Position numbers and translations under genes: made by a program. Positions 17,108 to 26,830 of a stretch of 35,478 bases of DNA are shown here, one piece after another. The DNA comes from Acidithrix ferrooxidans (lineage in GTDB: Bacteria > Actinomycetota > Acidimicrobiia > Acidimicrobiales > Acidimicrobiaceae): positions 1-35,478 of the forward strand of contig NZ_JXYS01000036.1 in the NCBI RefSeq assembly GCF_000949295.1, written 5' to 3'. The notes under the pieces were generated by a model. The model saw nothing but the letters and a program-made list of their open reading frames with translations. It ran no database searches and was not told where the DNA came from. Within the stretch, counting starts at the first letter, position 1, and each line of letters starts with the position of its first letter.

Positions 17108-17147
17108 GGCCCACCGGGACTCGAACCCGGGACCAAGGAATTATGAG
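17108..17147 (-). repeat. Detached tRNA 3' half, copy A (att-like)
   Basis: 40 bases identical, apart from one change, to the 3' half of the intact CAU tRNA at 26754-26830: from the acceptor 3' strand through the T arm to the anticodon loop, ending exactly at TTATGAG. The 5' half is absent, so this is not a functional tRNA. A fragment ending in the anticodon loop is what an integrase crossing over there would leave. It is followed after ~10 bases by repeat module A. Confidence 0.9.
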
Positions 17148-17156
17148 ATGGATCGG

Positions 17157-17312
17157 AAGTGTCCGAGCTGGGAGTCATAGTGTCGCATAATTGCAGTTAC
17201 TAGCTTTACAATCTAAAGACCATTGAGACTCCGTGAAACTGAATGTTACGCTCTCGGACACATTTGTTGGGTGAATTGTTACGTGGACAGGCTTGCTTTA
17301 TCAGCCCCAAAG
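17157..17312. repeat. Repeat module, copy A
   Basis: Starts AAGTGTCCGAGCTGG and carries TGTCGCATAATTGCAG, then the inverted CTCGGACACATTTG, then GTGGACAGGCTTGC. It is nearly identical over ~150 bases to copy C and more distantly related to B, D and E. TGTCC-type words thus occur at least four times, two facing each way. It could be a short non-autonomous insertion element with TGTCC ends or an integrase arm-site region. Confidence 0.85.
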
Positions 17313-17428
17313 ATTTCAGCGAAGTGGTCCAAAGATTGTGGCAAGGTCAAACGTCGCCAGACATATAGCAATCAGTGTCGCAACCGCTTCTTACTTCCTT
17401 CATTGGACGATTGTGCGATAAAAGTCGC

Positions 17429-17527
17429 GTGTACGATCATCCACTTTGCTATAGTGTGTACGATCATCCACTTTGCTATAGTGTGTACGATCATCCACTT
17501 TGCTATAGTGTGTACGATCATCCACTT
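17429..17527 (+). promoter_or_regulatory. hipB: Four tandem 27-bp repeats in the hipBA promoter
   Basis: Units start at 17429, 17456, 17483 and 17510, the last cut short after 18 bases. Each begins GTGTACGATCATCCAC and the full ones end TTTGCTATAGT, which contains an extended -10 (TGCTATAGT). The array ends 32 bases before the hipB start. HipB proteins repress their own promoter by binding repeated operators, so these are likely HipB sites overlapping three stacked -10 elements. Confidence 0.75.
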
Positions 17528-17558
17528 AAGACAGCATTTATTTCCTTAGGAGGCACCT

Positions 17559-17864
17559 TTGAAGAAGATTCTTTCCATGAATGATCTAGCGGCTATCGTC
17601 AAAGGACGACGTCTTGAACTCGGACTCAGCCAGAATGCACTTGCACAAAAGGCACAAGTCTCACGTGAATGGATCGTGCAATTCGAAGGCGGAAAGATTT
17701 CAGCCCAAACCATCCAGTTACTTCGAGTTATTGAAGCCCTAGACCTTTCCCTTTCCGTCTCGGTCAACACTAACGCCGTTGCAAAGGACAGTGCAACGTC
17801 GACAAGTACATCTTCGACAAGTACATCACTCGATGAATTACTACAAAGATACGGTGCTAGATGA
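17559..17864 (+). CDS. hipB: HipB-type XRE-family antitoxin
   Basis: 101 residues. An XRE helix-turn-helix spans about residues 12-65 (VKGRRLELGLSQNALAQKA, then VSREWIVQFEGGKI). A Ser/Thr-rich tail (SATSTSTSSTSTS) and LDELLQRYG follow; such flexible HipB tails can be degraded to free the toxin. The TTG at 17559 is chosen because AGGAGG lies 5 bases upstream; the in-frame ATG at 17577 is too far away. It overlaps hipA by ATGA, so translation is coupled. As antitoxin it should bind HipA and repress the operon through the upstream repeats. Confidence 0.85.
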   Translation: MKKILSMNDLAAIVKGRRLELGLSQNALAQKAQVSREWIVQFEGGKISAQTIQLLRVIEALDLSLSVSVNTNAVAKDSATSTSTSSTSTSLDELLQRYGAR

Positions 17865-25151: not shown

Positions 25152-25398
25152 CCTTACGAGTTCCTTCCCGTGGTCGAACGACGATCTCCAAATCGAGTGC
25201 ACGGCAGGCCAAGACAAGATAGCGCACGGCTTCAGTGGTGGAACCGCGCTCAAGTTCTGAAAGATAACTCCGATGTAACCCTGAAGTCTTTGCTAGTTCA
25301 GCCTGAGTCACTCCACGACGAAGGCGAAATTCACGCAGTGCCATCCCGAAGGACTGGGCGCCCCGAATCACGTACTCCCTGTCTACATTTTCAGACAT
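25141..25398 (-). CDS. hipB: HipB-type XRE-family antitoxin (second module)
   Basis: 85 residues from ATG 25398. The XRE helix-turn-helix covers residues ~15-70: MALREFRLRRGVTQAELAKT, then GLHRSYLSELERGSTTEAVR. The tail LDLEIVVRPREGT is short, unlike the Ser/Thr tail of the first HipB. No strong ribosome-binding site is seen. The stop overlaps the start of hipA, so the pair is coupled and probably autoregulated from the region just upstream. Confidence 0.85.
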   Translation of the reverse strand: MSENVDREYVIRGAQSFGMALREFRLRRGVTQAELAKTSGLHRSYLSELERGSTTEAVRYLVLACRALDLEIVVRPREGTRKDGA

Positions 25399-25425
25399 AG
25401 GAATAGTTTAGCTCACTTGTCTACA
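25380..25425. promoter_or_regulatory. hipB: Possible HipB operator words
   Basis: TGTCTACA occurs at 25380-25387 (over the first codons) and at 25418-25425, 38 bases apart, spanning the expected promoter of the second hipBA. Two copies of an 8-mer at this place are suggestive only. Confidence 0.3.
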
Positions 25426-26517
25426 TCTGCGGGCATCGATTGGTGCAGGGTTGATGGTGGACACATGGGGTTCACCACTCCAGGCCGAGGCCGCATCAAG
25501 TCTCCAGACCGAGAAAGACAACCACGTGAACCGAAGTTATGCCTCCAACGTCACTCGCCCTCGCTTCACACACCATGGTAACGGATGCTTCGTAATTATG
25601 TGGCCCACCTAAACACCATGCTCGCGCGCTGGCAAACCTGAAAGCACCTACCCATTACGTACGTCGCCGATCAGCGTATAGCTACAAATACCTGCCGTGG
25701 TGTGACCAATCTGGAGCGAGCATAGAGTCTTCCGAATGCAGAACCAATTACCCTTTCGTAGACTATGTCCCACGTTATACACAAATTCACCATGGCATCT
25801 TCAGAATTTCTTGGCTTAGATTAATTCTTTGAATTTGGTGACTCAGTGATACATGTTTCCCAAAGCTCTAGCCAACACTCGATTTACCCGTTTTATGACC
25901 GCGGCGGAAGTTCGTGTAAATACATGACGGTATGTTCAGTGATGAGCGAACCTGTCTTCGGGAACATCACTATAAATCTAGGAGACGAGGGGAGGGCGCC
26001 CGGTGCCAATACTTAGGTCGATCGGCGACAACTGGATTCAGTAAATCGTGCCTTAGGTATGCACGGCCGAAATAATGGCAGTGTGAACTATGCATGTGAA
26101 TATCAATGGGGGGTTTGGCCTGACCGAGCAGCATCTAATCCTTGCATTTTCGGGGCTAAAATCGTGGGTCAAAATACCGGTTTGACGTGGATAAAGTTAG
26201 AAACCTGATGGAGGGACGCCAGCGACTGCATCAGTCCTAGTCGGCATCGCCCCTACAAGCATCGGACAAGCTGTTGCGTACCCCATGAGCAAATCCGCCC
26301 CGTATGTCGCCCCTCAAAAGCATCACTATTGGAGCATTACGTATCTTGAGGACGTCGCCAACGAAGGATTCATTCTCCCAGATCCGACATCGGCGCTTCG
26401 GCCAATCCCCGATGCCCGGCCCGACCAGGCCGACGTGCGATGCTGTTGCCACCCTGCGCAACGTCTTGGAGGAGACCTTGGTAATCGCTCACGCGAGTGT
26501 TCGTTTGACTCATAGAG
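25426..26517. other. Stretch of ~1.1 kb with no convincing gene
   Basis: Composition is mixed and partly GC-rich as in decayed coding DNA, and frames of 70-76 codons occur on both strands at 26237-26547, but I recognise no domain. This is where a lost integrase would be expected (between the last cassette and the tRNA), yet no tyrosine- or serine-recombinase motif could be read. Confidence 0.5.
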
Positions 26518-26575
26518 GGTGAAGGCGGCGCTATGTGTTTTGTTCACAAAATTTCATCTTGGCGCCGCCTTCACC
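26518..26575. repeat. 14-bp perfect inverted repeat next to the CAU tRNA
   Basis: GGTGAAGGCGGCGC at 26518-26531 and its exact complement at 26562-26575 flank 30 bases that include the smaller hairpin TTTTGTTCACAAAA. In R3 copy 1 the same structure is partly kept. It could be the transcription end of the tRNA, or a recombinase-related structure. Confidence 0.7.
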
Positions 26576-26694
26576 ATCATTTCGCTCAAAATCAAAGAAG
26601 CTGTGACTTTTACGCAATCTTTGGACCACTTGAACCTACTGCCAGTCACTTAGCGAAAGCGTCAAACATGCTAAAGTACGATGAGCCGGAAATG
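26524..26694. repeat. Repeat R3, copy 2 (3' flank of intact tRNA)
   Basis: The partner of 19343-19524, reading GGCGGCGCTAT, TTTTGTTCACAAAA, ATCAAAGAAGCTGTGA, CAATCTTTGGACCACTTGAA. It ends at GCCGGAAATG; about 60 further bases separate it from the tRNA, which copy 1 lacks. Confidence 0.85.
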
Positions 26695-26753
26695 TCGAAA
26701 GGTCACCCCGCTAGAAACGGAAGAGCCACTGAAAAGCTAAATAGCTTATGAAC

Positions 26754-26830
26754 TGGTGGGCCCACCGGGACTCGAACCCGGGACCAAGGGATTATGAGTC
26801 CCCTGCTCTAACCGACTGAGCTACAGGCCC
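26754..26830 (-). tRNA. tRNA with CAU anticodon (Met elongator or Ile2), CCA encoded
   Basis: Complete cloverleaf on the minus strand: acceptor GGGCCTG with TGGGCCC, D arm GCTC/GAGC, anticodon stem GGGGA/TCCCT with loop CTCATAA, variable TGGTC, T stem CCGGG/CCCGG, discriminator A and CCA. CAU anticodons serve Met or, when lysidine-modified, Ile (AUA); sequence alone does not decide. It is not an initiator-type, since the first acceptor pair is matched. Its 3' half recurs three times to the left, so this gene is the likely integration target of the island. Confidence 0.93.

Follow-up and report, generated by a model that had tools for sequence, protein, structure and literature searches.

The stretch 17105-26753 in a contig of Acidithrix ferrooxidans, an iron-oxidizing acid-mine bacterium, is very probably a stack of at least four decayed islands of the actinomycete integrative and conjugative element (AICE) type, which carry no integrase and entered a single tRNA gene with the anticodon CAU by site-specific accretion. 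The window analysed here is the whole of contig C36 (35,478 bp) in the genome of strain Py-F3 (G000; 4,019,867 bases in 183 contigs, 98%-complete). The islands (E1, E2a, E2b and E3) are best read as AICE derivatives resembling cis-mobilizable elements (CIMEs), because their attachment arms and layout match those of a complete AICE in the same tRNA of a congener. They are bounded by copies of the end of the target gene in the same orientation, the exception being E2b, where the copy beside the arm (F4) has been lost.

A preliminary description of this DNA had reported three displaced 3' halves of the tRNA, all oriented alike, located on its 3' side and reaching to the anticodon loop, and our analysis bears this out. 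With the 43-base tRNA 3' half (26756-26798) as query, the halves F1, F2 and F3 match at 41, 36 and 37 of 43 positions, against a best match of 27/43 in 40 Markov-1 random windows; the next best matches in the window itself reach 24/43 on the plus strand and 23/43 on the minus strand. All three halves have the orientation of the tRNA, and their similarity to it ends at one common anticodon-loop base. The same description had proposed three successive integrations. Integration at the tRNA stands, and the number of units rises to at least four, since 19527-22888 is made up of two islands (19527-20842 and 20843-22888). Strict local succession is unproven, as F2 fits the tRNA of a Ferrimicrobium metagenome-assembled genome (MAG; L156), and equally those of G043 and G128, better (42/43) than the resident tRNA (36/43). 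The tRNA itself is probably tRNA-Ile2 (lysidine type) and not Met, because the two other CAU tRNAs met in the genome look like an initiator (C104) and an elongator Met tRNA (C12), an elimination that covers the three CAU tRNAs met and not a scan of all tRNAs in the genome, and that uses features which we take to separate the three classes (initiator, elongator Met and Ile2). An Rfam search of 12500-27500 returned two tRNAs and two matches under the gathering scores, none of them on the arms; one of the sub-threshold matches is to the tmRNA model and covers 18 bases (19536-19553) within F2.

To the right of each of the halves F1-F3 lies a conserved arm of ~150 bp, which contains inverted repeats of the TGTCCGAG type and direct repeats of the TGTTGGGT type. 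A sequence-only profile built from ten arms finds 15 places in 5/12 genomes of the genus. Across the order, 7 of 198 genomes give a match; those in G000, G093 and G184 are strong, and the remaining four have E-values from 9e-4 to 2e-5. A full tRNA 3' half precedes the arm at 10 of the 13 places with E<1e-20 (ten of the 13 are rows of the model); at two more the arm follows a tRNA residue (G005:C35 and C5, judged by eye) and at one, F4, it follows none. The residue at C5, a contig of the same genome as the window, resembles that of another tRNA. By reading, the half beside the arm is Ile2-like in most places, comes from a valine-like tRNA in G007:C142 and from a lysine-like one in MAG locus L154. 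A pattern scan returned 17 loci, nine of which were judged by eye to be arms of this family (one of these being half an arm) and eight not. The motif TGTTGGGT, with at most one mismatch, stands at +117 to +128 past the crossover in 10/11 compared arms, and a second copy follows 12 bp further in 8/11; the F1 and F3 arms have a single copy and the arm of G001:C140 none. The background of this motif with one mismatch is 0.15 per 300 bp of one strand. It also occurs at -56 and -44 before the tRNA end at the three tRNAs that adjoin an integrase gene (G008:C15, G008:C57 and Ferrithrix). This layout is that of integrase arm-binding sites in P and P' arms, to which an integrase would presumably bind. 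P arms are kept in E1, E2a, E2b and E3, and a one-mismatch copy of TGTTGCGT is present left of F1. The arm was also considered as a conserved hairpin and rejected as such: single-strand folding of six arms was no better than that of shuffles (z +1.7 to -1.7).

Single islands in relatives confirm the further claim that DNA integrated at one tRNA and that the crossover lay in its anticodon loop. In G184, which belongs to another genus of the same family, a tRNA-anchored AbiE island aligns with window 20843-22931 in a single stretch of 2,093 bp at 89.9% identity. The match runs from the F4 arm to the final base of F3, that is, to the anticodon-loop base; past it, G184 runs into an intact tRNA 5' half and the window into the next arm. 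This indicates that the AbiE segment 20843-22888 once adjoined an intact tRNA, because the match ends exactly where the tRNA 5' half of G184 begins. The order in G184 is DnaG- and RpoD-like genes (by reading), tRNA-Asn, the tRNA, AbiEi, AbiEii, arm and displaced half; this half is 43/43 identical to its tRNA and the lone island measures 2.1 kb. The AbiE proteins of G184 and the window are 91-94% identical, and the DnaG-like protein of G184 is only 49% identical to that of the window's genome (residues 3-431 of 615), so the AbiE island has spread by horizontal transfer. Left of the displaced half of G184 a Doc-like C-terminus is seen by eye, and this site is probably also a stack. The Ferrimicrobium MAG has an intact tRNA followed by a 3.18-kb insert, an arm and a displaced half that agrees with its own tRNA half at 43/43 positions; the insert carries an Rv2525c-like protein and a further open reading frame (ORF) of secreted type as its cargo.

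The element that ties these islands to AICEs lies in the congener G008 (contig C15), where the orthologous tRNA (77/77 identical), which also has the pxpA-like gene as its neighbour, is followed by a 9,455-bp element with a displaced half of 49/49. Its genes encode a tyrosine integrase (PF00589, 1.1e-21), a Xis-like helix-turn-helix (HTH) protein, RepSA (3.9e-78) and an FtsK-type protein, and by this gene set it is a complete AICE. Its arm aligns with those of the window and has the same layout. In Ferrithrix thermotolerans (G093) an integrase gene lies beside the tRNA on C87 and a half with its arm near the end of C43, which has a second integrase remnant left of the half; the two parts fit as one element and are presumably joined.

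We propose that a tyrosine integrase of the type encoded in Ferrithrix (L191:1222-2139) and G008:C57 would cross over within the anticodon loop. The incoming circle would bring its own tRNA 3' half beside the ~150-bp arm; this half would restore the tRNA and the old one would be pushed to the far end, next to the arm, each integration thus swapping the 3' half of the tRNA for that of the incoming element. F1 suits a resident half (41/43) and F2 a half from another genus, a pattern that fits single integrations and the arrival of a ready-made composite alike. The islands, presumably descended from AICEs, would have lost their integrase, replication and transfer genes, the integrase gene probably together with the P' arm by deletion, and they may have moved in trans, or in cis with an AICE. 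Three of them would have kept a toxin-antitoxin pair (HipBA, AbiE and HipAB) and E2a would have lost its cargo. The pairs may have been kept because they punish loss, and any order of arrival is likewise presumptive.

Ten ORFs of the window were scanned with Pfam. In the three islands that retain cargo, it is predicted to consist of adjacent toxin and antitoxin genes of known families (HipA, AbiEi, AbiEii and HTH), forming type II and type IV pairs (Table 1). The parts of the stack have separate relatives. The first ~340 bp of E2a resemble a Phd-Doc mini-island of G005:C35 (84%). Part of E3 (23552-25436) recurs in the array of MAG locus L160 at 86-88% (the cassette at 88% over 1,665 nt), where the E3-like cassette precedes a tRNA half, an arm and a further toxin-antitoxin cassette. 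Directly upstream of hipBA in E1 there are tandem repeats of 27-bp units (17429-17527).

Table 1. Positions of the target tRNA gene, its displaced halves, and the islands, arms and cargo genes of the stack in the window.
Feature	Position	Strand	Remark
Intact target tRNA gene, anticodon CAU	26754-26830	minus	ARAGORN call tRNA(CAT), Met
Displaced tRNA 3' half F1, resident type	17105-17147	minus	41/43 vs own tRNA
Displaced tRNA 3' half F2, foreign type	19527-19569	minus	36/43 vs own tRNA
Displaced tRNA 3' half F3	22889-22931	minus	37/43 vs own tRNA
Island E1, cargo HipB/HipA	17148-19526		
P-type arm of E1	17148-17290	plus	TGTTGGGT at +117
hipB-like HTH antitoxin-like gene (E1)	17559-17864	plus	Pfam HTH_31/HTH_3
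HipA toxin-like gene (E1)	17861-19135	plus	Pfam HipA_C 7.2e-45, Couple_hipA
Right end of E1	19343-19526	plus	Resembles right end of E3
Island E2a, truncated	19570-20842		With transposase fragment
P-type arm of E2a	19570-19722	plus	TGTTGGGT at +127, TGTTGAGT at +139
Island E2b, AbiE toxin-antitoxin cassette	20843-22888		
P-type arm F4 of E2b	20843-20990	plus	tRNA half gone
AbiEii nucleotidyltransferase toxin gene (E2b)	21264-22010	minus	Pfam AbiEii 1.2e-15; 94.4% amino acid identity in G184
AbiEi antitoxin gene (E2b)	21997-22620	minus	Pfam AbiEi_4 2.5e-10; 90.8% amino acid identity in G184
Island E3, cargo HipA/HipB	22932-26753		
P-type arm of E3	22932-23083	plus	TGTTGGGT at +127
HipA toxin-like gene (E3)	23895-25253	minus	Pfam HipA_C 2.2e-46
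hipB-like HTH antitoxin-like gene (E3)	25141-25398	minus	Pfam HTH_3 7.2e-11
Right end of E3	26524-26694	plus	Resembles right end of E1
Older remnant, right half of another P-type arm	15083-15156	plus	E=1.1e-11 and 8.8e-11

The preliminary description had remarked that no integrase gene is visible, and a protein comparison agrees with it. When the window was searched by tblastn with 13 proteins taken from two AICEs (E<1), matches to an integrase, Xis or Tra were absent, and inside the islands there was no match at all; outside them the search gave a Rep match (E 0.67) at 4881 and a match to an unnamed AICE ORF (E 0.003) at 27408. A search for integrase remnants left of the tRNA fragments of the window gave chance-level matches alone (best E 0.17). 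Complete AICEs combine an integrase, Xis, a RepSA, RepAM or Prim-Pol replication protein and an FtsK-type Tra protein, and the islands of the window are therefore not complete AICEs. The genome as a whole has 13 PF00589 matches, and the one nearest to the AICE integrases, on C104, is 33-35% identical to them. We rejected this integrase as a helper acting in trans: it sits in a different, initiator-like tRNA, and the repeats in its arm have the sequence TGTAGGGATGA instead of TGTTGGGT. The C104 locus (L099:3534-9905) is itself an apparent complete AICE beside the initiator-like tRNA(CAU), and direct TGTAGGGATGA repeats lie in the DNA between its integrase gene and that tRNA; its ORFs read as HTH/TPR regulator, FtsK-, RepSA-, Xis- and integrase-like, the integrase alone being confirmed by a family search.

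Several observations weigh against a stack of AICE-derived islands accreted at this tRNA. Units of half and arm ending at the same base also occur away from the tRNA, at C13:9278-9325 and C137:8146-8195. The C13 unit probably lies ~8.5 kb left of the window, with sbcDC-like and further non-island ORFs in between, and the C137 unit is unplaced relative to the tRNA. Genome-wide scatter of the tRNA fragment, which the preliminary description had named as an observation that would speak against integration, is thus found in part, both units carrying the same arm. The halves are not ordered by divergence, the farthest one, F1, being the least diverged. Among the relatives compared, none was found with an empty tRNA site together with the downstream flank of the window. 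The arm of G001:C140 stops short of the repeats. In the 300 bp left of F2 and the 300 bp left of the tRNA, the regions covered by the search for P' repeats, and at the right ends of E2b and of the G184 AbiE island, there is no plus-strand TGTTGGGT repeat with at most one mismatch, so that E1, E2b, E3 and the G184 island have no recognizable P' repeat at their right ends; integration and excision of small islands without such repeats is unexplained. No close cognate integrase was found in the 98%-complete genome, the best candidate being that of C104, which is sited in another tRNA. Of the integrases that would fit, the Ferrithrix gene (L191:1222-2139) appears to be frameshifted near its N-terminus and that of G008:C57, beside the tRNA, is cut by the contig edge (151 residues, 87% to the Ferrithrix integrase); no intact integrase of this type is in hand.

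The alternative that has to be taken most seriously is that the stack was put together in other Acidimicrobiia and came into Acidithrix as a single composite, and not by separate integrations, which we regard as a real possibility falling somewhat short of even. The foreign type of F2 would be explained in this way, and a remnant of a Phd-Doc island lies left of the AbiE island both in the window and, judged by eye, in G184. DNA common to the window and G008:C110 spans the F1 junction (13719-17527, 92-98%), and conjugative transfer of CIME-ICE tandems (ICE, integrative and conjugative element) has been described (PMC5704250). However, F1 and the half on C13 are both of the resident type (41/43), and if the 3' half is swapped at each integration a foreign half is expected after single integrations too. 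It is very improbable that half and arm together form a repeat that spread without integration at the tRNA, whether through homologous recombination or as a small passive element. The units on C13 and C137, the missing tRNA half at F4, and the arms of L160 and L161, which by eye are near-identical from the middle on behind different tRNA halves, would all suit such a repeat, but they leave unaccounted for the lone islands that occupy intact tRNAs in G184, G008 and the Ferrimicrobium MAG and have their arm where integration predicts it, the fixed crossover base, and the full tRNA half before 10/13 strong arms.

Two further readings can be given very little weight. In superintegrons, repeats stand beside toxin-antitoxin cassettes, and the imperfect inverted repeat that recurs by the toxin-antitoxin cassettes of the window brings to mind an integron-like cassette array, with the arm as a folded recombination site and the toxin-antitoxin pairs as the cassettes. 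Though no search was aimed at an integron integrase, we consider this highly improbable: the arms fold no better than their shuffles and the crossover, as seen at the G184 junction, is in the tRNA anticodon loop and not in the arm. Chance similarity, or ordinary tRNA pseudogenes, has nothing found in its favour and is in effect refuted by the match of the halves (36-41 of 43, compared with at most 27 of 43 in 40 random windows), by the conserved arms and by the islands of relatives.

The flanks of the stack vary between relatives. Upstream of the tRNA, pxpA-, pxpBC- and LLM-like genes are found in 8/9 congeners whose tRNA locus was fetched (the exception is G001). Downstream, close matches to genes of the window and C13 were found among the loci of 21 relatives in G008 only (DUF4143 and HipBA); on G008:C15 these homologues are 78-86% identical in amino acid sequence and arranged differently. 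The EAL- and kinase-like ORFs of the window have two weak matches in G001 (23-25% identity), sbcDC-like genes occur in G001 and G007 without any other queried neighbour, and none of the queried genes lies downstream of the tRNA in G009. On that side of the tRNA, G009 has a secreted-type gene; its nearest relative is on C29 of the window's genome, and a look-alike is seen by eye at the same place in G043. The contigs of several relatives end soon after the tRNA. Contig C13 (L015), whose half is of the resident type (41/43), overlaps the left end of the window (1-817, 99.9%) and at its other end repeats window 13912-14704 at 99.5%; because of these two matches the contigs are probably neighbours, with a direct repeat ~26 kb apart. 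The 3.8 kb shared with G008:C110 (L140; 13719-17527) lie on both sides of the F1 junction and contain two ATPase/DUF4143 genes, an AbiEi remnant and part of E1. On C110 only 14 bases of the F1 half are left, ~200 bp stand in place of the arm, and the contig gave no match to the tRNA. Between G008 and the window's genome the LLM-like host gene is ~71% identical in amino acid sequence, and the shared segment reads as a recent transfer. Elsewhere in the window, 15-bp tandem units at 12462-12611 read QVNQA within an open frame, and a DDE transposase gene (DDE_Tnp_1_4, 1.6e-44; 33728-35068) and a perfect inverted repeat of ~42 bp (35378-35422) lie close to and at the contig end, respectively.

Four observations on arms in other places may be added. 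L160:1-858 and L161 (G007:C142) share the same toxin-antitoxin cassette end (92% over 812 nt) behind halves of two different tRNAs, and the similarity of their arms described above suggests recombination inside the arm. At L154:2574-3623 the gene next to the arm encodes an acid peptidase of family A4 (Pfam PF01828), a cargo other than toxin-antitoxin. On C137 (L016:8630-9024) broken-looking DNA beside the arm is 82% similar to part of this peptidase region. In Prochlorococcus sp. AG-409-D14 (L164, ~327) a TTGTTGGGTG..TTGGGTG repeat stands ~100 bp past an apparent tRNA-Ser 3' end and may represent the same arm-site motif, in an unrelated element that targets a tRNA.

If the stack in the window consists of AICE-derived islands accreted at one tRNA, it provides a base-resolved case of accretion, in that one genus has the island attached to an intact tRNA and the other has the same island displaced within a stack, and it places AICE-type elements and their remnants in the Acidimicrobiia. 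A toxin-antitoxin pair is nearly the sole recognizable cargo of three of the remnants, and the persistence of decayed islands, be it through addiction, defence or drift, becomes testable in a culturable acid-mine isolate. We speculate, with more doubt than conviction, that toxin-antitoxin pairs in Acidimicrobiia travel as ~2-kb tRNA-anchored cassettes, moved between genera by AICE integrases and forming an integron-like gene bank. Each cassette of such a bank would consist of one arm, one toxin-antitoxin pair and a tRNA 3' half, would have no recombinase and might be single-armed. The integrase would be supplied by another element, and the cassettes would be collected into addiction-guarded arrays at one essential tRNA.

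The closest known parallel is the site-specific accretion of ICEs of the ICESt1/ICESt3 family, in which decayed elements, the CIMEs, are described as stacked at one target gene (PMC5704250). Like CIMEs, the islands of the window have no integrase or transfer genes, seem to be bounded by attachment sites and are stacked at one target gene. They differ in being presumably AICE-derived, in their size of about 1-4 kb each, in a cargo that is mostly a toxin-antitoxin pair, in right ends (E1, E2b and E3) at which no P' repeats were found, and in one 3' half of foreign type. AICEs of the pSAM2 type are described as having tyrosine integrase, Xis, RepSA and FtsK genes and as targeting tRNA 3' ends (PMC3218068, PMC9513070); in Streptomyces, tandem accretion of AICEs and of defective AICEs (DAICEs) at one tRNA is reported, some with toxin-antitoxin genes (PMC9513070), whereas the islands of the window have no AICE genes at all. 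According to the 2011 survey of AICEs the Acidimicrobidae are completely devoid of them (PMC3218068), a statement against which, for today's genomes, the AICE of G008:C15 and the apparent one of G000:C104 speak. The ssrA islands of Dehalococcoides lie in tandem downstream of one tRNA-like gene with repeats of its 3' end, and 15 are reported without an integration module (PMC3146451). The arrangement of multiple tandem islands, each with a 3'-end repeat, behind one tRNA or tRNA-like gene is common to both systems, but those islands involve a serine recombinase and the T-loop, and the window's the anticodon loop, toxin-antitoxin cargo and, presumably, a tyrosine integrase. In the Islander collection of tRNA islands a displaced tRNA fragment marks the island end, as in the window, with 2083 anticodon-centred and 1836 T-region sites in its Table 1 (PMC4383910); an integrase gene is required there, and four tandems of three or more are listed (PMC4383910), so that an integrase-less stack like the present one would be missed. 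A literature search joining Acidimicrobiia, integrative and conjugative elements and toxin-antitoxin gave a single paper, which deals with Methylorubrum, and later reports may exist. The principle of accretion is already known, and what is new here are the tiny toxin-antitoxin islands common to different genera and the AICEs of the Acidimicrobiia.

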